Positions 4,523 through 19,182 of a stretch of 31,543 nucleotides of DNA are shown piece after piece. The notes beneath the pieces are model-generated. The model did no database searches, was not told the origin of the DNA, and saw only the letters and a program-made list of their open reading frames with translations. Within the stretch, counting starts at the first letter, position 1, and each line of letters opens with the position of its first letter. A program made the position numbers and the translations under genes. Source of the DNA: a virus; the IMG/VR virus record IMGVR_UViG_3300020183_000308, positions 1 to 31,543 of that record; one strand, written 5' to 3'.

Positions 4523-6030
4523 TGGAGACCAAGAAGATATTTGGCCCTCCAGGGACGGGAAAGACCACGTTCCTCCTCAATACCGTTGAACAGCTGTTGA
4601 ACGAGGGCATTCCTCCAGAAAGAATTGGCTATTTTGCTTTCACCAGAAAGGCCGCCCACGAGGCAAAGGAGCGGGCGCTTAAGAAGTTTCCGCACCTAAA
4701 CGCAAAGAGCTTTACCAACTTTCGTACTATCCATAGTCTGTCGTTTGTTTCCTTGGGCATCCGCAATGAGCAGGTGCTCAAAGACAGCCACATCCGGGAG
4801 TTCTCCCAGGAGATCGGCATCCAACTGAAGTTCTCTCAGGGCGATGAGAGTTGGGAAGTCTCCGTGGACCACCCAGCCTTTGCCGTCATACACTTGGCAC
4901 GGCAAAAGATGGTCGATCTTCAGGTGGCCTACAACGCCTCTGAGCTTCAGATGACTTGGTTCGAGTTCAAGTTTCTACATGATTCCTACCGGCAGTTCCT
5001 GCTCAATAACCACCTCTACGATTTCACTGACATGCTGGAGATGTTCTCCAACGCCTTTGACGATGCTTACCCATCCTTTGATGCAGTGATCATCGACGAG
5101 GCCCAGGACTTGACGCCCTTGCAGTGGAAGATTGCCAAGCGGCTCCTTGACAAGACCAATATTTCCTACGTCGCAGGCGATGACGATCAGGCCATCTTTG
5201 GCTGGAGCGGCGCAGATGTAACGGCCCTGCTTACACTGCCAGGAGAAAACGTCGTCCTCGAGCAGTCTTACCGGGTGCCTCAGGCCATCCACGACCTGAG
5301 CGCCGAGATCATCCAACGTGTGCGCTACCGAGTTGATAAAGAGTGGAAGCCCATGGACACCGAGGGTGCGATCCACAAGATCTTCAATGTGCGTTCGATT
5401 GACTTTGAGAATATTGAGGGCAATTGGATGGTCCTGGCCTCCACAAATTACATGCTCAACGAGATTCACGAGCACCTAAAAAGCGTTGGAATTCTTTTCG
5501 AGCGCAACCACGTTCGTTCGATTAGTGAGGGCACCGTTGATTCTGTCTACGCATGGGAGCGCTTACGCAAGGGCGATTCGATCAGCGCCAAGGAAGTCAA
5601 GAACATCTACAACCTCCTGGGCCCCGGCATGGTCCGGCGAGGGTTCAAGAAGTTTGACGGCCCCGACACGCAGCTCTATTCCTTTGAAGAACTGACCACG
5701 AGCCACGGGCTTGACATTGCAAAAGAGACCCCATGGTACGAGGCGCTGGTTCGCATCCCCGAGCCACAAGAGGTTTACATCCGTGCCGCTCTTCGCAGGG
5801 GCCAGTCTCTTCGCGGCGAGCCACGCATTCGCTTGTCCACGATCCACGGAGCCAAGGGCGGTGAGGCTGACAACGTCGCCTTACACATGGATCTGTCCTC
5901 TAAATTTATGGACCTCTACCACCAAAAGCCCGATGACATTCACCGCTTGTTTTATGTTGCCGTAACACGGGCCAAGAAGAATCTCTATTTGGTTCTTCCC
6001 AAAGACTACTCGAAAGCTTTTCACATATGA
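4522..6030 (+). CDS. UvrD/Rep-like superfamily 1 DNA helicase
   Basis: 502 residues with a complete SF1 set: Walker A GPPGTGKT (8-15), motif Ia FAFTRKAA (38-45), motif II IIDEAQD (190-196), motif III GDDDQAIFGWSGAD (219-232), motif IV LEQSYR (246-251), motif V STIHGAKGGEADNV and motif VI FYVAVTRAKKNLYL near the end. It is shorter than cellular UvrD (about 700 residues), as usual for phage UvrD-like helicases. It should be a 3'-5' ssDNA translocase that unwinds DNA at the fork. It is coupled to the primase upstream (1-nt overlap) and the polymerase downstream (ATGA overlap). With no DnaB-type helicase in the window, it or the SNF2 protein may be the replicative motor. Confidence 0.95.
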   Translation: METKKIFGPPGTGKTTFLLNTVEQLLNEGIPPERIGYFAFTRKAAHEAKERALKKFPHLNAKSFTNFRTIHSLSFVSLGIRNEQVLKDSHIREFSQEIGIQLKFSQGDESWEVSVDHPAFAVIHLARQKMVDLQVAYNASELQMTWFEFKFLHDSYRQFLLNNHLYDFTDMLEMFSNAFDDAYPSFDAVIIDEAQDLTPLQWKIAKRLLDKTNISYVAGDDDQAIFGWSGADVTALLTLPGENVVLEQSYRVPQAIHDLSAEIIQRVRYRVDKEWKPMDTEGAIHKIFNVRSIDFENIEGNWMVLASTNYMLNEIHEHLKSVGILFERNHVRSISEGTVDSVYAWERLRKGDSISAKEVKNIYNLLGPGMVRRGFKKFDGPDTQLYSFEELTTSHGLDIAKETPWYEALVRIPEPQEVYIRAALRRGQSLRGEPRIRLSTIHGAKGGEADNVALHMDLSSKFMDLYHQKPDDIHRLFYVAVTRAKKNLYLVLPKDYSKAFHI

Positions 6031-9471: not shown

Positions 9472-9664
9472 CCACCAGTGCAGTGACGTTGGCTTCGATA
9501 TCGTCACCATCAACCAATCAGCCCGCCTCCTGCAAGAGGCACTGGCCGAAGCCCACCCGAGCCAGGAACAACTCGATGCGGCCGAAGCACTATGTTTAAA
9601 GATCCACCGCTCGACCTGCGCCATCCTCGTTTGGGCAGAAAAAAAGAGAGTTGACAACGTGTAA
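9440..9664 (+). CDS. Small phage protein, unknown
   Basis: 74 residues from ATG 9440, which has GAGG at 9430-9433. An in-frame ATG at 9428 would give four more residues with a poorer ribosome site. It overlaps the preceding gene by 32 nt, large for this phage, so the start is uncertain. From QSARLLQEALAEAHPSQEQLDAAEALCLKI the sequence looks like two amphipathic helices. Its C-terminal codons contain the -35 box of the next promoter. Confidence 0.6.
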   Translation: MQTQTPQQCNDHQCSDVGFDIVTINQSARLLQEALAEAHPSQEQLDAAEALCLKIHRSTCAILVWAEKKRVDNV

Positions 9665-10965: not shown

Positions 10966-11282
10966 GAAACCCAAGAAAAAGCATCATCTTCGGTAAAAGA
11001 TTCCGGTTTACCGTCTACGACCTGAAAATGCTCACCGACGGGAAATTCACTACCCTGCGCTCTCAGGTCCTCCAACTGGCCCAAAAAGGCATCATCCACC
11101 ACGTCGATACCCTCCCCCCTCAACACGTCAAGGTCTACGAATCCAACGTGGACCCACTCGTGCTCTTGAAACAAGGATCCCTCGCTTGGCTCCCACCCAT
11201 CAACTACGTGCCGGAATCCACCTACTTGAACAACCCCTTTAACCTGAAAAACGCCATCGACATGCGCTGGAGAACTCAATGA
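10962..11282 (+). CDS. Small basic phage protein, winged-helix-like
   Basis: 106 residues, ATGA overlap with the gene before. The first half (FRFTVYDLKMLTDGKFTTLRSQVLQLAQKGIIHHVDTLPPQHVKVY) reads like a small winged helix: helix, TTLRSQVLQLAQKG recognition-like helix, then beta wing. The second half is aromatic and Pro-rich (AWLPPINYVPESTYLNNPF). A DNA-binding role is suggested by pattern only. Overlaps the NrdR-like gene as ATGA. Confidence 0.7.
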   Translation: MRNPRKSIIFGKRFRFTVYDLKMLTDGKFTTLRSQVLQLAQKGIIHHVDTLPPQHVKVYESNVDPLVLLKQGSLAWLPPINYVPESTYLNNPFNLKNAIDMRWRTQ

Positions 11283-11464
11283 GATGCATCTACTGCGAGG
11301 GCGAGGAAACAAAAGTGCTCGACACCCGCAAATTCCCGGAACGCGAACCTTGGATTACCCGAACCCGACGGTGCTACACCTGCAACAAACGCTTTAAAAC
11401 CATCGAAATCCCCGCCGGAGACCTTAACTTTGAGGAAGAAAAGAACGGTGTAGAAGAGGTGTAG
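11279..11464 (+). CDS. NrdR-like zinc-ribbon protein without ATP-cone
   Basis: 61 residues. MRCIYCEGEETKVLDTRKF...ITRTRRCYTCNKRFKTIE places C3, C6, C32 and C35 with the same flanking residues as the N-terminal zinc ribbon of NrdR, the bacterial ribonucleotide-reductase repressor (MRC-x2-C, TKVxDxR, RRR-x-C-x2-C-x-KRF-x-T-x-E). The nucleotide-sensing ATP-cone (about 90 residues) is absent. It may be a free DNA-binding ribbon that mimics or competes with host NrdR, or a ribbon reused for another purpose. It ends in acidic residues inside the first copy of the 11-nt repeats. Confidence 0.8.
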   Translation: MRCIYCEGEETKVLDTRKFPEREPWITRTRRCYTCNKRFKTIEIPAGDLNFEEEKNGVEEV

Positions 11465-13006: not shown

Positions 13007-13023
13007 CATACAGGAGAATTACC

Positions 13024-13230
13024 ATGGCAAGAAAATGGCTTGTTGGCACCAACACCGCAAAGGTCGATGGTCCCTCATTCAAAACGAAGCGCGAGGCGAT
13101 CGAGTACGGCCGCCGATATATTCACGGCATTTTTATTGTTTGGAAGGCCGATCTGCACGAAGGGCAAAAGGCAGAGAACGGCGCCCGTCTTCGGGCATGG
13201 CTCCGTGATACGGCGGAGGCCTCAGCATGA
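13024..13230 (+). CDS. Small basic protein, unknown
   Basis: 68 residues from ATG 13024, after the shared leader ATACAGGAGAA (13008-13018). Sequence MARKWLVGTNTAKVDGPSFKTKREAIEYGRRYIHGIFIVWKADLHEGQKAENGARLRAWLRD: a beta strand, a helix (KTKREAIEYGRRYI) and another strand (GIFIVWKA), reminiscent of a small alpha/beta fold. The in-frame start at 12991 lacks a ribosome site. It is first in a four-gene operon (13024-14361) joined by ATGA overlaps. Confidence 0.76.
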   Translation: MARKWLVGTNTAKVDGPSFKTKREAIEYGRRYIHGIFIVWKADLHEGQKAENGARLRAWLRDTAEASA

Positions 13231-13559
13231 AAGTATCCGAACTCACAGGAGTCGCCCTTGATTGGGCGGTAACTAAGACCGAAGGATTTGACTCTGAGGT
13301 AGAAGGCCCCGAGTGGGGGTTGTGGGGCTGGGCAACCGATTGGGGCCAGGGCGGACCGATTATTGAGCGCGAGGGCATTTCGCTCACGTTTGAGAATGGA
13401 GATTGGATTGCAATCGCGCTCGGGCACACTTCAGACGGTAGGGCTATTCGGTACTTTGATTATTCCCCTCTGACTGCCGCCATGCGCTGTTACGTCGCGA
13501 GCAATTTTGGCGATGAAATTGAAGTGCCCCATGAACTCATGAGAGGAGAAAAGGCATGA
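13227..13559 (+). CDS. DUF2591 (NinX-like) phage protein
   Basis: 110 residues, ATGA overlap with the gene before. MKVSELTGVALDWAVTKTEG at the N-terminus, STDWGQGGP-like ATDWGQGGPIIEREGISL (36-53), WIAIALG and SPLTAAMRCYVASNFGDEIEVP at the end match the DUF2591 family, whose lambdoid member is NinX in the nin region. Function is unknown; members are common in proteobacterial phages. The last codons (MRGEKA) are encoded by a 21-nt junction identical to that at 14057-14077. Confidence 0.86.
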   Translation: MKVSELTGVALDWAVTKTEGFDSEVEGPEWGLWGWATDWGQGGPIIEREGISLTFENGDWIAIALGHTSDGRAIRYFDYSPLTAAMRCYVASNFGDEIEVPHELMRGEKA

Positions 13560-14077
13560 AGGACTACCCACCAGTTCAAGCACTCCGCGCCCATCCGAAG
13601 CGCATCATGTTTATTGAGGGGCAGGATAATCTGATTACGGGCGGGCAAGCTTACTTGAGTCGCTCTGGGCAGTCTGTTGCGGTGACCCTGTACGGGCCGC
13701 GCGACCCCCGTGACCCTGACGCATATCCAGTGCCCCGGCATCGCGTGTACCTGCCGGTGGAAATGGTCGAGGGCGCGACAAAACCCGCGCATCTGCTGAA
13801 CGCGGCACAACATAAAGCTACGCGTTGGCTTGATGACTGCAAAGCTGATTACTGGCACGGCGCACTTGTTGTCGCGTGTAGACCCTTGCGAGCGCACTAC
13901 AAACCCCTTTTGCAAGCGATTGCCAAGACTGCCCACAATCGTTGGGGCCACAGGTATTGGCGCAATGCGGAGGCTCGCGCCATGCTGGACCGCGAGCTTC
14001 GCTTGATTGGCGTCAAGATGCCGCCGCCCGTGTCTGCCATACGATTCCGTGAATTTATGAGAGGAGAAAAGGCATGA
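13556..14077 (+). CDS. Uncharacterised protein, basic C-terminal half
   Basis: 173 residues, ATGA overlap with the NinX-like gene. The N-terminal part (RIMFIEGQDNLITGGQAYLSRSGQSVAVTLYGPRDPRDPDAYPVPRHRVYLPVEMVEGA) appears beta-rich; the C-terminal half has helices with aromatic and basic residues (HKATRWLDDCKADYWHGALVVACRP; HNRWGHRYWRNAEARAMLDRELRLIG). No domain recognised. It ends in MRGEKA, as does the preceding protein, because the ribosome site of the next gene is built from the same sequence. Confidence 0.76.
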   Translation: MKDYPPVQALRAHPKRIMFIEGQDNLITGGQAYLSRSGQSVAVTLYGPRDPRDPDAYPVPRHRVYLPVEMVEGATKPAHLLNAAQHKATRWLDDCKADYWHGALVVACRPLRAHYKPLLQAIAKTAHNRWGHRYWRNAEARAMLDRELRLIGVKMPPPVSAIRFREFMRGEKA

Positions 14078-14361
14078 GCGCCAAAGAACTTTATCGCTTG
14101 CTGGACAATTACGCCGGAGCGTATGAGACGGTCGAATCGTTCGATGGGGTTCGCATCATTCGCTTTGAAGTAGAGGAAGACTCGGGGTTTGGCCTTTTGC
14201 CCCTCGATGAGGCCTCGGATGAGCAGGTTATTGCTTACGCGGATTCGCAGGGGTATGAGCTTACGCCGGAAGACGTGCAGGACATCCGTATCACCTCAGG
14301 CTATCTAGGGGAGACTGTATCTAGGGCGGTGAATGATTTTCTCGATGCGTTCGAGAGGTAA
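14074..14361 (+). CDS. Small acidic protein, unknown
   Basis: 95 residues, starting in the second copy of the ATGA junction. Strongly acidic (FEVEEDSGFGLLPLDEASDEQVIAYADSQG; TPEDVQDIRITSGYLGETVSRAVNDFLDAFER). A small alpha/beta fold is likely; an anti-defence DNA-mimic role is possible from charge alone but unsupported. Last gene of the 13024 operon; a new promoter follows at 14365. Confidence 0.74.
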   Translation: MSAKELYRLLDNYAGAYETVESFDGVRIIRFEVEEDSGFGLLPLDEASDEQVIAYADSQGYELTPEDVQDIRITSGYLGETVSRAVNDFLDAFER

Positions 14362-14364
14362 GGC

Positions 14365-14393
14365 TTGCAGGAATAAACTATCCGTAGTATTCT
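14365..14393 (+). promoter_or_regulatory. Promoter with near-palindromic operator ACTAT-CC-GTAGT
   Basis: TTGCAG (14365-14370), 17-nt spacer, TATTCT (14388-14393). The operator-like ACTATCCGTAGT (14377-14388) fills the spacer up to the -10 as in the 9651 promoter, with one change from the perfect palindrome. Confidence 0.66.
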
Positions 14394-14423
14394 AGCGTCT
14401 CAACTTATACAGGAGAAAATGCA

Positions 14424-15110
14424 ATGCTTAAGACGGTCGCAGTATCGAAAAATCAAAAGACGGGTCCTATCGCTGTCACGTATCGATCCGGAGCGGCGGA
14501 CGTGTTCGGCACGTGCCCCAAAACTTGCGGGCTTTTGCCTTGCGGGAAAACCGGGGCGGCGGAAATGGACTTGGATTATGTTCGGGCCGTGGTCGATGCG
14601 GTGCCCCGCCAGGGTAAGGCGTGGACGTACTCTCACTTTCCGGCAGATCAGTTGCCCTTCCCCGAAGAGGGTAAGACTGTAATTAATGCATCGTGCGATT
14701 CGATGGATGAGGCGGTTCGGGCCTTTTCCTCGTTTCGGCCCGCGACGGTTACCTTGCCAAAACAAGATTGGAAGAGCACTGAGTACCGGGGCGTTCGGTT
14801 CGTGCGTTGTCCGGCGGAATTGTCCGATACGTTCGCATGCAATGATTGCGGCGGCGGAAACCCGATATGCGCGCAACCCCATCGCGATTATGTGGTGGCC
14901 TTTTTTGCGCACGGCCCGAGTGCGAAGAGGGTAGGTACGGGCACTGGGGGTTGTTACGGTTCGAGCGGGCGGGTATCAATTCAATGGCACCACACTAAAG
15001 ACAATGGCGCGGCGGATGATGCGCAGGCGGTCCGGGAATTCGCGCGCTCGCTCCCCTCGGGCTCATTGCTCCGGCATCATGTGGTGGGTGATATGGGGGC
15101 CGCGCTGTGA
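14424..15110 (+). CDS. DUF7227-like cysteine-rich protein with apparently permuted order
   Basis: 228 residues from ATG 14424 behind ATACAGGAGAA (14407-14417). Seen: KTGPIAV (12-18) and CPKTC (31-35); AWTYSHF (66-72); FVRCPAE...FACNDCGGGNPIC (127-149) followed by VAFFAHG (158-164); then GCYGSSGRVSIQWHH (176-190) and LPSGSLLRHHVVGDMG at the C-terminus. I recall all of these blocks from the DUF7227-type phage/plasmid family, where the GCYA...IHW and LPxGxLWRHNxxGD blocks come in the first half. Here they come last. Nine cysteines suggest metal binding. Function unknown. The stop overlaps the GTG of the next micropeptide. Confidence 0.72.
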   Translation: MLKTVAVSKNQKTGPIAVTYRSGAADVFGTCPKTCGLLPCGKTGAAEMDLDYVRAVVDAVPRQGKAWTYSHFPADQLPFPEEGKTVINASCDSMDEAVRAFSSFRPATVTLPKQDWKSTEYRGVRFVRCPAELSDTFACNDCGGGNPICAQPHRDYVVAFFAHGPSAKRVGTGTGGCYGSSGRVSIQWHHTKDNGAADDAQAVREFARSLPSGSLLRHHVVGDMGAAL

Positions 15111-15166
15111 TCATTCTTTTATTAGTGTTTGCCCTAATGTGGATTTTGCAAGATTGGCTTGACTGA
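15107..15166 (+). CDS. 19-residue membrane micropeptide (GTG start)
   Basis: GTG 15107 overlaps the stop of the preceding gene (GTGA) and opens 19 codons: MIILLLVFALMWILQDWLD, a hydrophobic helix with a polar end. The ribosome site is weak (GGGGG, 15095-15099), so coupling by the overlap is likely. The last codons contain the -35 of the next promoter. Its design parallels the 21-residue peptide at 11904 (hydrophobic run then EDRLK). Real coding status needs proof. Confidence 0.55.
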   Translation: MIILLLVFALMWILQDWLD

Positions 15167-15187
15167 CGTCCCGGTATCCTATAAATT
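15159..15187 (+). promoter_or_regulatory. Promoter for the DUF932 gene
   Basis: TTGACT (15159-15164), 17-nt spacer, TAAATT (15182-15187). The -10 lies in TATAAATTATCGATAT, which shares ATAAATTATCG with the promoter at 16174. The -35 overlaps the end of the micropeptide gene. Confidence 0.66.
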
Positions 15188-15241
15188 ATCGATATGGCTT
15201 GAATGGTTCGGGCCTGCAACCTCAATACAGGAGATTTAAAG

Positions 15242-16075
15242 ATGACCGCTCACCGCTCGATTTACAATGAAAATGGAATTTCCGTCGATCAACTATCCGC
15301 CGCCGTTCCTTCGGTTTTCGCTCAACAGCCATTCTCGGGCGTGTCGTCCCGGTACGGGTTTGTTCCCACGATTGATGTGGTAGAAGACCTCCGCGCTTCC
15401 GGGTTTAAGCCTGTGCAGGCAGGGCAGACCCTTACCCGTGTCGCGGGTAAAAGGGATTTCACTCGGCACGTGCTCCGCTTCCGTCCCGATTACGCGCCCA
15501 CCGTGGCGGGCTCACACCCGGAGGTTGTGCTCATGAATTCTCATGACGGTTCATCCGGGTTTAAATTGTGGGCAGGGCTCTTCCGCATGGTTTGCGCGAA
15601 TGGGCTCATTGTCTGCACGTCCACCATGGGGGCCGTGTCCGTCCCTCACCGCTCGAATGCTGTTGAGGCCGTCCGGTCCCGTTCGTTCGATTTTCTCTCC
15701 CGTGTGGATAACCTATCCGACACTGTCGCTCGGTATGAGGCCCGCTCACTCACCGACGAAGAGGCTTTTTCTTTTGCTGAGATTGGCGCGCAAATCCGGT
15801 GGGGCTCCGAACGGCCTGCTGGTTTGAATGCTCGAGACCTGCTTATGGCTCGCCGGTTTGAGGATGCGAGGCAAAACCTGTGGACGGTTCTCAATACCAT
15901 TCAGGAGAATCTCACCCGTGGCGGCGTTAACCTCACCCGCGCAAACCGCCGCTCGAGCACTCGGGGCATGCGATCGGTGCAGGACGATACCCGCATGAAT
16001 GTCCGCCTGTGGGCCGCCGCCGATGAGTTTTTATCGGGCGATATTGTGGACGTCGAGGCCGTCGAGGTAGCATAG
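15242..16075 (+). CDS. DUF932 phage/plasmid-like protein
   Basis: 277 residues from ATG 15242, behind ATACAGGAGAT (15225-15235). Matches the DUF932 (phage/plasmid-like TIGR03299) family: SSRYGFVPTIDVVEDLRASGFKPV (34-57), RHVLRFRPD, VVLMNSHDGSSGFKLWAGLFRMVCANGLIV (about 96-125) and a helical C-terminal half. Family members are widespread on phages and plasmids of proteobacteria; their function is unknown. It is monocistronic, with its own promoter and leader and a hairpin-rich stretch after it (16104-16177). Family assignment is strong. Confidence 0.92.
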   Translation: MTAHRSIYNENGISVDQLSAAVPSVFAQQPFSGVSSRYGFVPTIDVVEDLRASGFKPVQAGQTLTRVAGKRDFTRHVLRFRPDYAPTVAGSHPEVVLMNSHDGSSGFKLWAGLFRMVCANGLIVCTSTMGAVSVPHRSNAVEAVRSRSFDFLSRVDNLSDTVARYEARSLTDEEAFSFAEIGAQIRWGSERPAGLNARDLLMARRFEDARQNLWTVLNTIQENLTRGGVNLTRANRRSSTRGMRSVQDDTRMNVRLWAAADEFLSGDIVDVEAVEVA

Positions 16076-16103
16076 GCGGAGACTATTGGGTCGGCCTATA
16101 GGA

Positions 16104-16177
16104 TAGTTATAAACTAAGCCCCATGGTCCGAGGGCCGTGGGGCGTGTAATTTGGTGCAAGGGCCGAGGGGCCCTTGC
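16104..16177 (+). other. Three inverted repeats in the 160-bp gap after DUF932
   Basis: TAGTT-ATA-AACTA (16104-16116); a hairpin with arms 16118-16126 and 16135-16143 (GCCCCATGG / CCGTGGGGC, one G-T pair); and a perfect 9-bp hairpin GCAAGGGCC-GAGG-GGCCCTTGC (16156-16177). None has a T-tract, so they are not classical intrinsic terminators. They may protect the 3' end of the DUF932 mRNA or insulate the next promoter, whose -35 lies in the last arm. Confidence 0.68.
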
Positions 16178-16207
16178 ATTGATTGCCGATAATTGATAAA
16201 TTATCGG
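16174..16207 (+). promoter_or_regulatory. Promoter with hairpin operator CCGATAAT-N6-ATTATCGG
   Basis: TTGCAT (16174-16179), 17-nt spacer, TAAATT (16197-16202). A perfect 8-bp inverted repeat CCGATAAT / ATTATCGG (16186-16193 / 16200-16207) brackets the -10. It shares ATAAATTATCG with the DUF932 promoter. Confidence 0.7.
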
Positions 16208-16236
16208 TTCGTTCAACTGATACAGGAGAATGCATC

Positions 16237-16515
16237 ATGCAATTGTTTTCTAAACAAGACCCAAGACGGCACGGCGGGCCGTATGATCGGGGCCGCGCTG
16301 ATTCATATTATCGGCGGCCTTTTGATCCGCATTACTTTGTCGGTGACACTTACTCGAGCCCGAGGGTTGCCGCCGCCGATATGTCGGCGGCGGAGACTGC
16401 GGCCTATGCTCGAGGGTTCTTGGACAATGAGCGGTACGGGGATTTTAAGGACTGGGGGTCACCCTTTGTCCATGTCTCTCGAGACATGGACGAGGATGAG
16501 GGGGGTTCGCCATGA
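16237..16515 (+). CDS. Small conserved phage protein, unknown
   Basis: 92 residues from ATG 16237, after ATACAGGAGAA (16220-16230). Motifs: PYDRGRADSYYRRPFDPHYFVGDTYSSPRV (15-44) and MSAAETAAYARGFLDNERYGDFKDWG (49-74), with an acidic end. I recall the RGxADSYYxRxxxPH...AAYxxGFxxNxxxGDFKDW pattern from small hypothetical proteins in phages and proteobacteria, without known function. The conserved His, Tyr and Asp residues could be structural. It shares a 4-nt ATGA overlap with the next gene. Confidence 0.78.
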   Translation: MQLFSKQDPRRHGGPYDRGRADSYYRRPFDPHYFVGDTYSSPRVAAADMSAAETAAYARGFLDNERYGDFKDWGSPFVHVSRDMDEDEGGSP

Positions 16516-16727
16516 TCGTATCTATATGCGTGGTGAGTAAAGAATATCGATGGGTCCAGGTCGAGGCGGAGAGCAAAGAGGATGCTATCGATAAGGCATG
16601 GGACGATATTGAGAACATCATGAATCGTAAGGCGGTGGATTACGACACTGAGCTCTATGTGGACGAAGGCGTTGAAGAGGGCTGGCGTCTCGATAGTTCA
16701 GTTAATGTTGAGCTCAAGCCCCGATAG
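16512..16727 (+). CDS. Small acidic protein, unknown
   Basis: 71 residues, ATGA overlap with the preceding gene. MIVSICVVSKEYRWVQVEAESKEDAIDKAWDDIENIMNRKAVDYDTELYVDEGVEEGW is a strand-helix-strand pattern: an N-terminal strand, a strand with alternating residues (YRWVQVEAES), a helix (KEDAIDKAWDDIENI) and a third strand. This fits a small alpha/beta fold common in short phage proteins. No own leader. A 15-bp hairpin follows. Confidence 0.76.
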   Translation: MIVSICVVSKEYRWVQVEAESKEDAIDKAWDDIENIMNRKAVDYDTELYVDEGVEEGWRLDSSVNVELKPR

Positions 16728-16752
16728 TTAAAAAGTAATGGACGGGCATAGA

Positions 16753-16784
16753 CCCTGCCGGTAAGGTTTACCTTACCGGCAGGG
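16753..16784 (+). other. Perfect 15-nt inverted repeat upstream of the 16817 gene
   Basis: Arms CCCTGCCGGTAAGGT (16753-16767) and ACCTTACCGGCAGGG (16770-16784) separated by TT. There is no T-tract after it. It lies where the other module genes have their promoter and no clear -35/-10 pair is visible, so it may be a terminator for the upstream pair, a processed 5' end, or a large operator. Confidence 0.72.
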
Positions 16785-16816
16785 TGCCGGTGACACTTAA
16801 TACAGGAGAAAAGGAC

Positions 16817-17251
16817 ATGGGCAATAGAGCCGTTATCACGTGGGGCACCGAGGGGTCTGAATCGGTGGGTGTTTATTTGCATTGGAATGGGGGCCGTGCG
16901 TCGGTCCGGGCTTTTTTGGACACGTGCAAAGCCCGGGGCTACCGGTCCCCGGCCAACGATCCGTCGTATGCCATGGCTGGACTGGTGGCCGTGATACAGG
17001 AGTTTTTTGGCGCCACTGGGTTATCCGTTGGCGTCGACGTGATAAACCGCATGGACTGCGACAACATGGACAACGGGGTTTATCAGGTGGGCGAGGGTTG
17101 GCAAATTGTTGACCGGTGGGGCGAGGGCTCGCAGTCGGTTGAGTTGACCATGGCGCCCATGCATGGTCGCGAGCTCGAGCAGTATGAGGGCATCATGGCC
17201 CAGCTGGCGCGAGCCAGGGAACCGGCAGCCATCGTGTTTGAGACGGTCTAA
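16817..17251 (+). CDS. Conserved phage/bacterial protein, unknown
   Basis: 144 residues from ATG 16817, behind ATACAGGAGAA (16800-16810). Opens with MGNRAVITWGTEGSESVGVYLHWNGGRASVRAFLDTCKARGYRSP, a pattern (GNRAVI...GVYLHWNGG...V.AFL..C...GYR.P) I recall from a family of unknown function found in phages and their hosts, followed by AMAGLVAVIQEFFG, LSVGVDVINRMDCDNMDNGVYQVGEGWQIVDRW. Conserved His, Trp and Asp residues might bind a ligand. Monocistronic, closed by a 24-bp palindrome. Confidence 0.8.
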   Translation: MGNRAVITWGTEGSESVGVYLHWNGGRASVRAFLDTCKARGYRSPANDPSYAMAGLVAVIQEFFGATGLSVGVDVINRMDCDNMDNGVYQVGEGWQIVDRWGEGSQSVELTMAPMHGRELEQYEGIMAQLARAREPAAIVFETV

Positions 17252-17255
17252 GGGA

Positions 17256-17279
17256 CTATCGGGGCTCGAGCCCCGATAG
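17256..17279. terminator. 24-bp perfect palindrome after the 16817 gene
   Basis: CTATCGGGGCTC followed by its exact complement (17256-17279) forms a strong hairpin just after the stop. There is no T-tract, so it may be a 3'-end stabiliser, a Rho-type stop or a symmetric protein-binding site. The next promoter starts 11 nt later. Confidence 0.65.
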
Positions 17280-17289
17280 GGATTAGGGC

Positions 17290-17328
17290 TTGACAAGTGC
17301 AACGATATTCGAGAGAATATCGTTGCAG
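17290..17328 (+). promoter_or_regulatory. Promoter with GATATTC-GAGA-GAATATC element, copy 1
   Basis: TTGACA (17290-17295), 17-nt spacer, GAGAAT (17313-17318). The 13-bp inverted repeat TGCAACGATATTC-GAGA-GAATATCGTTGCA (17298-17327) covers the spacer and -10. The same arrangement, with the same 8-nt distance from TTGACA to GATATTC, is repeated at 17802. Confidence 0.76.
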
Positions 17329-17351
17329 TCTAACCTATACAGGAGAAAATC

Positions 17352-17801
17352 ATGTTGCAAGATCTAATTAATGAAGATACCCGGGGCCCTGGCTTTCCCG
17401 CCAGTTACAAGTACGACGGCCTGCTGAGAGAACTTGCGGCCCTGCTGGTGCCGCACATTGTTGAGCATCCGGACATGCAGAAGTTGCTCGGCAGCGCGTC
17501 TCAGTTGGTCACCCGTGAGACTGTCGAAGAGATCGTCCAGGCCAAGATAGATGACCTGGGCCCGATGGACCGCGACATGATCCGTGAGGTTTGCGAAGAG
17601 GTCATCGATGCGTCGGACATCGATGACAAGATCAACGATTACATGTCCTCCAACTTTGAGATCTCGGACTATGAATCGGAGATCAAGGACATGGTCGACG
17701 TGGACGATGCGATCGAGAATTATCTTATTACTCACCTCGACGATCAGGTCACCCAGGCCGTCCAGGGCCTGACGTTCAACGTCGAGGTTTCGTCCAGGTA
17801 G
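17352..17801 (+). CDS. Acidic helical protein, unknown
   Basis: 149 residues from ATG 17352, behind ATACAGGAGAA (17337-17347). Very acidic and almost entirely helical in its second half (RETVEEIVQAKIDDLGPMDRDMIREVCEEVIDASDIDDKINDYMSSNFEISDYESEIKDMVDVDDAIENYL), with Asp-rich repeats of about 20 residues that may form a helical bundle. DNA mimicry is possible from charge but unproven. Monocistronic. Promoter copy 2 begins immediately at its stop. Confidence 0.76.
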   Translation: MLQDLINEDTRGPGFPASYKYDGLLRELAALLVPHIVEHPDMQKLLGSASQLVTRETVEEIVQAKIDDLGPMDRDMIREVCEEVIDASDIDDKINDYMSSNFEISDYESEIKDMVDVDDAIENYLITHLDDQVTQAVQGLTFNVEVSSR

Positions 17802-17840
17802 TTGACAACTGCGCTGATATTCGAGAGAATATCGGTGCAG
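17802..17840 (+). promoter_or_regulatory. Promoter with GATATTC-GAGA-GAATATC element, copy 2
   Basis: TTGACA (17802-17807), 17-nt spacer, GAGAAT (17825-17830). The core GATATTC-GAGA-GAATATC (17816-17833) is identical to copy 1. The outer stem CTGCGCT / GGTGCAG still pairs as RNA through two G-U pairs where copy 1 has Watson-Crick pairs. Confidence 0.76.
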
Positions 17841-17881
17841 TCTGTTGTTTCCTTCAACGCAGTCGATACAGGAGAATTACC

Positions 17882-18154
17882 ATGCAGATTCAAAAGGTCC
17901 TCATCCGTCGCAACGAGTCCTATGCCTCGTTCAAGCCCAATCAACTGATCCTCACGGTCGAACTCTCTGACCGCGATGGCAACACCCAACAGGTAGCGCT
18001 CGACGATCAGACGATCGTCGAAGTGTTGGAAGTGATCCGCGATCAGGTCGCAGTCAAGACCAAAGCCCAGGCCGCACTCGCCAAGCAGGCGATCGATTCA
18101 GCGATCGCGGCCCCGGCCCTCGAGGACGCAACCAGTTTGAAGATCGAAGCCTAG
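17882..18154 (+). CDS. Small protein, unknown; last gene of accessory module
   Basis: 90 residues from ATG 17882, behind ATACAGGAGAA (17866-17876). A beta-rich start (MQIQKVLIRRNESYASFKPNQLILTVELSDRDGNTQQVALDD) is followed by helices (QTIVEVLEVIRDQVAVKTKAQAALAKQAIDSAIAA). No family recognised. The strong terminator at 18188 ends the transcript. Confidence 0.77.
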   Translation: MQIQKVLIRRNESYASFKPNQLILTVELSDRDGNTQQVALDDQTIVEVLEVIRDQVAVKTKAQAALAKQAIDSAIAAPALEDATSLKIEA

Positions 18155-18217: not shown

Positions 18218-18514
18218 GTTTGTCCCGTGTTTGCCAAACACGGCCGCTGAGCATGGTAGGCTCTGCCTACCATGCTCCGTCTTCTCTTGTCCAATACCAA
18301 ATAACAATAAAAAAAAGAAAATTGATAGGGAAAAACTAAACACCCACCCCGTCCCACAAAGGGTGGAGGCGGGGGTGGGCGGGCCCGCCTGGAGTCCCTT
18401 GAGAGTTGGTTGTGTTCCTTCTGTTCTGTCTGACTGCTTTCTTCCTTTTGGCCCCGTCTCTCCTGCTTCGCTCCTTTAAACTCAGTTTTAGCTAGCCAGC
18501 CAACGAACGAAAAC
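18218..18514. other. Non-coding boundary with hairpins and potential G-quadruplex
   Basis: No credible gene on either strand. Contents: hairpin CCGTGTTT-GCC-AAACACGG (18225-18243); perfect 13-bp hairpin GAGCATGGTAGGC-TCT-GCCTACCATGCTC (18249-18276); an A-rich stretch (about 18295-18340); and a G-rich block at 18361-18383 with four G-tracts of three or more and loops of 7, 1 and 1 nt, which meets the usual G-quadruplex definition. It separates accessory and packaging/head regions and could hold the packaging (pac/cos) site. Confidence 0.66.
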
Positions 18515-18544
18515 TTGGCAATTTCAGAACACCCCCGGTATCAT
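18515..18544 (+). promoter_or_regulatory. Sigma70-like promoter for packaging/head genes
   Basis: TTGGCA (18515-18520), 18-nt spacer, TATCAT (18539-18544), each one base from consensus. The 56-nt leader is AT-rich (AAAAAATTTTG and a second CAAAAAATTT) with GGAG at 18591-18594 before ATG 18601. Confidence 0.6.
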
Positions 18545-18600
18545 GCAAACACTTTTCCCACAAAAAATTTTGCAAAAAATTTAAACCTACGGAGACGTAT

Positions 18601-19182
18601 ATGCCTACAGGACAGAACAAGACAGGAAAGCATGGTGGCGCTGGTTCGAGGGCCAATAGGTATAAGCAGTTGTTATTGGATCAAGGGGTTGATCTCAAGG
18701 CTGCGACGGCTATGACAAAGGATCGATATGACGATTTGTCTCCGTATATAAGAGAGACTCGCACTGGCGGTAAGCAAAAAATCCCTATTACGTCGTCTGA
18801 GCTAGTTGAGATGGAAAAGATGGCGGAGCGTCAGGCCAACCAGTACAAGTCGTCTGGGAAGTATGTGTCTCCAGAGAGAAGAGAGGAGAAATTCGACATT
18901 ATTCGTGGGCGTCATCTTGCGGTGCGCCCAGAAAATGAGTATGAGTACAAAAAGAAGCAGATGACTCCAAGCAAAACATTGGAGCCATCTGGAACGGTTC
19001 GTCCCGTGGGCGGTGGTTCGGGATCGCGTGGTGGTGGGGGTGGTGGCGCGATGCCTGATGTAGATAAGCTTGGTAAAAACCCATTAAACATGGCGAAGGG
19101 TGGCCTTGCTACTCGTGGGTATGGTCTTGCAAGAAGGCCAGCAAAAAAGATGGTGAAGTTAGCGGGCACTAAAAAACGATGA
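18601..19182 (+). CDS. Basic, glycine-rich protein before the large terminase
   Basis: 193 residues from ATG 18601 with GGAG seven bases upstream. The N-terminal part (KTGKHGGAGSRANRYKQLLLDQGVDLKAATAMTKDRY) is basic; residues about 135-150 are a Gly/Ser linker (GGGSGSRGGGGGG); the end is basic (MAKGGLATRGYGLARRPAKKMVKLAGTKKR). The MAKGGLAT-type tail also occurs in the 1264-residue protein (MAQGGLVYRQ), a feature I associate with aquatic phage structural proteins. It may be virion-associated or packaging-related; function unknown. It overlaps the terminase by 4 nt. Confidence 0.8.
   Translation: MPTGQNKTGKHGGAGSRANRYKQLLLDQGVDLKAATAMTKDRYDDLSPYIRETRTGGKQKIPITSSELVEMEKMAERQANQYKSSGKYVSPERREEKFDIIRGRHLAVRPENEYEYKKKQMTPSKTLEPSGTVRPVGGGSGSRGGGGGGAMPDVDKLGKNPLNMAKGGLATRGYGLARRPAKKMVKLAGTKKR

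Follow-up and report, generated by a model that had tools for sequence, protein, structure and literature searches.

Organization of the locus

The window (i.e., the whole 31,543-nucleotide [nt] stretch of viral DNA analyzed in this work, probably from a marine phage) has a set of seven cassettes in the interval that separates its small terminase gene from its large one, each composed of an upstream sequence, the block ATACAGGAGA, and an ATG. The block occurs at positions 13008, 14407, 15225, 16220, 16800, 17337, and 17866 (overall span, 13008 to 17875), always on the plus strand and just before a start codon, and nowhere else in the window; sigma-70-like promoters are found upstream of the blocks. 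ATACAGGAGA exceeds a Shine-Dalgarno core in length and is reminiscent of start-associated sequences; related viral contigs carry eight (L006), six (L012), and four (L013) copies. The original prediction, which described a pair of promoter-hairpin elements at the last two cassettes, overlooked that both are members of this set of seven.

The two elements form a direct repeat (17290 to 17331 and 17802 to 17843; 42 nt, 88% identity, spacing of 512 nt), with all parts on the plus strand. In copy 1, the −35 hexamer TTGACA (17290 to 17295) precedes a perfect 13-bp inverted repeat with a GAGA loop, TGCAACGATATTC-GAGA-GAATATCGTTGCA (17298 to 17327; arms at 17298 to 17310 and 17315 to 17327), which is followed by the translation-start block (17337 to 17346) and an open reading frame (ORF) of 149 amino acids (17352 to 17801). 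In copy 2, TTGACA (17802 to 17807) directly follows the stop codon of this ORF, and the inverted repeat, ACTGCGCTGATATTC-GAGA-GAATATCGGTGCAGT (17808 to 17841; arms at 17808 to 17822 and 17827 to 17841), comprises 15 bp, including one T·G and one G·T pair; the start block (17866 to 17875) and a 90-amino-acid ORF (17882 to 18154) lie downstream. The coordinates originally given for copy 1 are correct, as are the common core GATATTC-GAGA-GAATATC and the equal distance of both hairpins from TTGACA; for copy 2, the original interval (17809 to 17840) was slightly shorter than the full stem. The outer stems had been described as differing with pairing kept, and this is indeed the case: between the copies, an A-T pair has been replaced by C-G through changes in both arms, and two other pairs have turned into wobbles.

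Both dyads are significant against dinucleotide shuffles of the upstream regions (P ≤ 0.001; no shuffle matched the stem), and the RNA fold z-scores are −5.84 for copy 1 and −4.60 for copy 2. The 18-nt core is present at only these two sites in the 31.5-kb record, even when three mismatches are allowed. We conclude that the hairpin dyads over the two promoters are a real, selected element. Neither downstream ORF matched a family at an E value of <0.001, and analysis of the neighboring ORFs with Pfam and PHROGs revealed no obvious regulator as owner of the dyad. Rfam gave no match in the window and none at these stems in relatives.

By the shuffle test, four of the seven cassettes have a significant upstream hairpin (16220, 16800, 17337, and 17866), and no significant hairpin was found at cassettes 13008, 14407, and 15225 or at the promoters at 1263 and 9696. 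The best stem covers the −10 element at cassettes 16800, 17337, and 17866; the first of these (16739 to 16785, plus strand) has the promoter TGGACG-17-TAAGGT and a 15-bp stem at 16752 to 16785. At cassette 16220, the best stem (16155 to 16178) is located just upstream, and a second stem of 10 pairs, GCCGATAATT-GATA-AATTATCGGT (16185 to 16208), covers the −10 element of TTGCAT-17-TAAATT (16174 to 16208, plus strand). The stem letters differ among the cassettes of one genome.

Several other features of the region were observed. A second stem-loop on the plus strand, CTATCGGGGCTC/GAGCCCCGATAG (17256 to 17279; also CTATCGGGGC..GCCCCGATAG), lies ahead of copy 1, after the upstream gene, and its two arms covary in relatives (CTATCGAGAC..GTCTCGATAG in L006; also ACTATGGGGGGC..GCCCCCCATAGT). 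A three-arm layout, in which a middle arm can pair with either the spacer arm or a third arm in the leader, is seen at 16752 to 16797 in the window (ACCGGCA-GGG-TGCCGGT), at L006:8956, and at L012:4735. A dyad of the form ACTAC-C(C/G)-GTAGT (once ACTAT) is found at differing offsets near the core of three promoters (the regions upstream of 9696, 13008, and 14407) and is possibly a common operator. Ahead of the ORF at 18601, a 237-nt noncoding segment (18352 to 18588) shares 96% identity with L006, more than the 85 to 90% found over most of the aligned genome, and it may possibly be a packaging or replication signal. Finally, positions 11279 to 11464 encode a 61-amino-acid protein made up solely of an NrdR-type zinc ribbon (PF22811; E value, 7e−12).

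Promoter elements and the predicted start site

Both copies have the predicted promoter TTGACA-17-GAGAAT, with the −10 element overlapping the loop and the right arm in copy 1 (17313 to 17318) and lying at 17825 to 17830 in copy 2 (both plus strand). The copy 1 promoter matches at 10 of 12 positions, which is not significant alone, as 3.7 such matches are expected in the region, and GAGAAT is without the usual first T. The position of GAGAAT is nonetheless preserved in copy 2 and in L006, as is the distance of TTGACA from the hairpin.

Given a −35 element at 17290 and a −10 element at 17313, transcription is predicted to start at about 17325, inside the right arm. The left arm of copy 1 would therefore be absent from the promoter's own RNA and be present only in read-through transcripts of upstream origin. 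The original prediction had offered a 5′-leader RNA structure as one interpretation; an RNA hairpin agrees with our analysis, and its placement in the gene's own leader does not, since the left arm is upstream of the predicted start.

Covariation in close relatives

At the hairpin locus, L003/L005 and L004 scarcely differ from the window. The more informative relative is L006 (IMG/VR 3300036770_004625; 59.7 kb), whose DNA is mostly 85 to 90% identical to that of the window. At the copy 2 site, L006 reads TTGACA-GCC-ACACCGATATCT-GCCA-AGATATCGGTGT; its copy 1 site is occupied by a cassette of another stem type, along with an extra gene and cassette. L006 also carries near-duplicate cassettes at 9505 and 9984. 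When the two window copies and L006 are aligned, 12 of the 13 L006 pairs are maintained, the sole break being the outermost pair; across the three copies, 97.4% of cells are paired and four pairs have changes on both sides, and only 6 of 500 shuffles did as well. In the L006 ortholog of cassette 16800, an inner G-C pair has become T-A through changes on both sides. Selection on pairing, as originally proposed, is supported by these data, and mismatched arms in relatives, which had been named as the observation that would count against it, are not what L006 displays.

Comparison of an isolate phage collection with window positions 14 to 20 kb gave only terminase-level similarity and one 139-nt match. 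The nearest terminase relatives of the window phage are HTVC023P/HTVC027P-like and not T4-like. Single-protein scans retrieved no further close relatives; pattern scans did better.

A wider class of marine hairpin promoters

Among all loci gathered by then, dyad centers cluster 16 to 28 nt after TTGACA (18 of 923 sites), and control hexamers display no such clustering. IMG/VR was scanned with the pattern TTGACA-N2..8-TATCCTA-N3..9-TAGGATA, which leaves the outer arm letters unconstrained. At least 83 distinct marine viral modules, many of them orthologs of one locus, fit TTGACA-N16-18-TAGGAT. In the 83 distinct modules among the matches listed, the spacing between the −35 and −10 elements is 16 to 18 bp only, although 12 to 24 bp was allowed, and the loop (5 to 7 nt) and gap (2 to 6 nt) vary. 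Among these same modules, outer position 1 is Watson-Crick paired in 82 of 83, position 2 is Watson-Crick (59) or G·T (23) in 82 of 83, and position 3 is Watson-Crick in 79 of 82. For the 39 distinct modules with a 7-nt loop among the matches listed, the three outer pairs are 97.4% paired, compared to 51.8% after shuffling, and 46 cells are doubly changed, compared to 12.8 in shuffles (0 of 500 shuffles reach this number). Since the spacing stays within 16 to 18 bp and pairing is kept, promoter and hairpin are both constrained; since arm letters change with complementarity kept, it is base pairing itself that is conserved and not sequence.

Many of the stems are perfect. The same placement with quite different stem letters is found at L235:4453, L310:5005, L333:68, and L321:833. 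Some of the phages with hairpin promoters carry a large terminase related to that of the window, and the Pelagibacter isolate HTVC027P has such a promoter (L341:8730). On the minus strand of HTVC027P, L341:7259-7379 matches the Rfam family Flavobacterium-1 RNA (RF02976; 90 bits).

The marine stems are not followed by a U-tract: downstream of the 83 stems (modules among the matches listed), T makes up 20% of the sequence and the longest run of T is 3. An ordinary intrinsic terminator was rejected on this basis. In the window, no U-tract follows the stem of copy 1, and copy 2 is weakly terminator-like.

Strand context and mismatch bias

Imperfect pairs provide information on the molecule in which the stem is formed: G·T on the gene strand is a pair in the sense RNA, and a protein-binding site or a cruciform should tolerate G·T and A·C alike. 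In the anchored TAGGAT promoters, G·T outnumbers A·C by 26 to 1 on the gene strand, and the stems of hairpin promoters with a downstream gene have 28 G·T and no A·C. Control hexamers also lean to G·T (32:20, summed), and the G·T count derives mostly from one stem class (GGGC/GTCC), with approximately 10 independent events versus 1 by hand count; as one class dominates, the bias is support rather than proof. The gene upstream of a hairpin promoter is on the same strand in 61 cases and on the opposite strand in none, compared to 84 and 63 for nonhairpin promoters (17 versus 90 downstream families at the gene-family level, P = 6e−5), a contrast that is indicative only, given that the nonhairpin set must include false promoters. 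The upstream stop codon usually lies 0 to 19 nt before TTGACA and, in copy 2, adjoins it. The presence of G·T with almost no A·C, together with an upstream gene that is never opposed, favors an RNA hairpin formed by the sense strand rather than a cruciform or an operator for a repressor.

Comparison with known systems

The closest resemblance is to the promoter-early stem-loop (PeSL) cassettes, described for the T4-like phages RB49 and phi1 (Arbiol 2010, doi 10.1093/gbe/evq006; Comeau 2014, doi 10.1093/gbe/evu129; cited in PMC4503421 and PMC5931544). In both cases, a sigma-70-like promoter fused to a stem-loop marks where small genes of a variable region meet. The window has the stem-loop overlapping or adjoining its promoter, and we measured the same geometry in RB49, where the stem lies over or just before the −10 element in 7 of 37 TTGAC-type promoters of the first 50 kb, with unrelated stem letters; we infer these to be the published PeSLs. 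Small genes of a variable region are represented by the seven interterminase cassettes and by the additional gene and cassette of L006. The changed stem type at the copy 1 site in L006 and the near-duplicate cassettes of L006 are no more than suggestive of gene shuffling of the kind mediated by PeSL cassettes. PeSL stems reportedly terminate transcription. The window differs in that its phage group has an HTVC023P-like rather than a T4-like terminase, and the marine set differs in its common ATACAGGAGA start block and its lack of a U-tract. Our verdict is that the window element is a PeSL-like cassette in an HTVC023P-like phage and that this unrelated, widespread group of ocean viruses is new for such cassettes.

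In cluster K mycobacteriophages as well, a repeated start-associated block contains a Shine-Dalgarno sequence, and upstream of the block a SigA-like promoter and an inverted repeat overlap (SAS/ESAS; PMC3203893, PMC11373665). There, however, the arm sequence is conserved and departures from it break pairing (PMC3203893), and we found A·C and other mismatches in the arms of Adephagia, a cluster K phage. The window cassettes instead have free arm sequence and kept pairing; an arm sequence conserved across sites, as in ESAS, was not found, the arms differing within one genome. In T4, the lysozyme gene e sets a precedent for a read-through hairpin whose 5′ strand contains a promoter: the hairpin, which hides the ribosome site, can form only in long RNA initiated upstream, since the promoter of gene e itself is part of that strand (review, PMC3014915). 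Unlike in gene e, direct occlusion of the ribosome site is not predicted for copy 1, as its hairpin ends approximately 14 nt before AGGAG. The virion RNA polymerase promoters of phage N4 have a hairpin at the promoter core; the window differs from these in having standard −35 and −10 elements and a stem whose sequence is not conserved.

Alternative explanations

The original prediction also suggested a dimer-binding operator, i.e., a dyad at which a dimeric phage or host regulator blocks RNA polymerase. Placement over the −10 element is that of a classic repressor site, both window copies have an identical core, and the copy 1 half-sites GATATTC and GAATATC are 11 bp apart, or one helical turn. 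Elsewhere, an operator has been proposed for the ESAS dyads of cluster K, which resemble such sites (PMC11373665), and in phage DSL-LC04 the half-sites TGTTTGTA/TACAAACA recur around promoters (L339:4200-4290 and 5850-5930). (At the first of these sites, an additional arm with TTTTTT after it creates a terminator-like leader stem.) However, a conserved half-site sequence and spacing was not found across modules, as only the window copies share the core: arm letters differ between cassettes of one phage with pairing kept, the loop ranges from 5 to 7 nt with the same arms, and the outer letters covary. The imperfect pairs are G·T and not A·C, whereas cluster K, for which an operator is proposed, does have A·C mismatches. 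We therefore regard an operator as unlikely, and a single repressor for all cassettes was rejected because the arms differ.

A DNA cruciform or extruded hairpin, acting as a supercoiling-sensitive promoter or recognized as hairpin DNA, as N4 virion polymerase promoters are, would fit perfect arms of 10 to 15 bp with short loops exactly over the core promoter, and it would account for pairing conserved without sequence. It is nevertheless very unlikely, as a cruciform pairs both strands and should make G·T and A·C equally rare, when in fact G·T dominates, and a normal −35/−10 promoter with strict spacing exists. Quasipalindrome correction converts imperfect palindromes to perfect ones, and such palindrome-repair mutation could also keep arms complementary; the dyads could then be functionless by-products of template switching, in line with the many perfect stems. 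We consider this highly improbable, given that it leaves unexplained the concentration of dyads at TTGACA and the exclusively same-strand context, and that G·T pairs persist uncorrected in many contigs. Also very unlikely is a leader hairpin that stabilizes the gene's own mRNA or tunes its translation: hairpins located entirely past the −10 element do exist in some related cassettes (L013:8635, L013:9029, L011:629, and L007 near 10400), but the left arm of each window copy falls in the spacer between the −35 and −10 elements, upstream of the predicted start.

Proposed role of the cassettes

On balance, we consider it probable that the element is a composite PeSL-like cassette whose hairpin works in the sense-strand read-through RNA, insulating small genes, with its pairing under selection. 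Each cassette would combine a stem-loop and the start block ATACAGGAGA with a promoter of the host sigma-70 type that serves the next small gene. The left arm would fill the spacer between the −35 and −10 elements, and the right arm would hold most of the −10 element and the discriminator. Judged from the predicted promoter positions, RNA initiated at the cassette's own promoter would begin within or beyond the right arm and be devoid of the hairpin, whereas read-through transcripts of upstream genes would carry the hairpin a short way past the stop codon of the preceding gene. In such read-through RNA, the hairpin may insulate neighboring small genes by attenuation, 3′-end protection, or processing, sharing its DNA with the promoter of the next gene.

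In a more tentative reading, which as a whole we find rather doubtful, the marine phage promoters could form a widespread class with a sequence-free hairpin that is absent from own-start RNA and folds in read-through RNA, such that the cell treats the two transcripts differently. Some cassettes (window positions 16739 to 16797, L006:8956, and L012:4735) might then re-pair the middle arm with the third leader arm as a two-state switch.

Covariation over many viral modules shows that promoter/stem-loop cassettes conserve pairing and not arm letters. The cassette type is thereby extended from T4-like phages to an HTVC023P-like marine group that includes the Pelagibacter isolate HTVC027P. It offers a compact and testable model of how small phage genes, each with its own promoter, may be kept separate.
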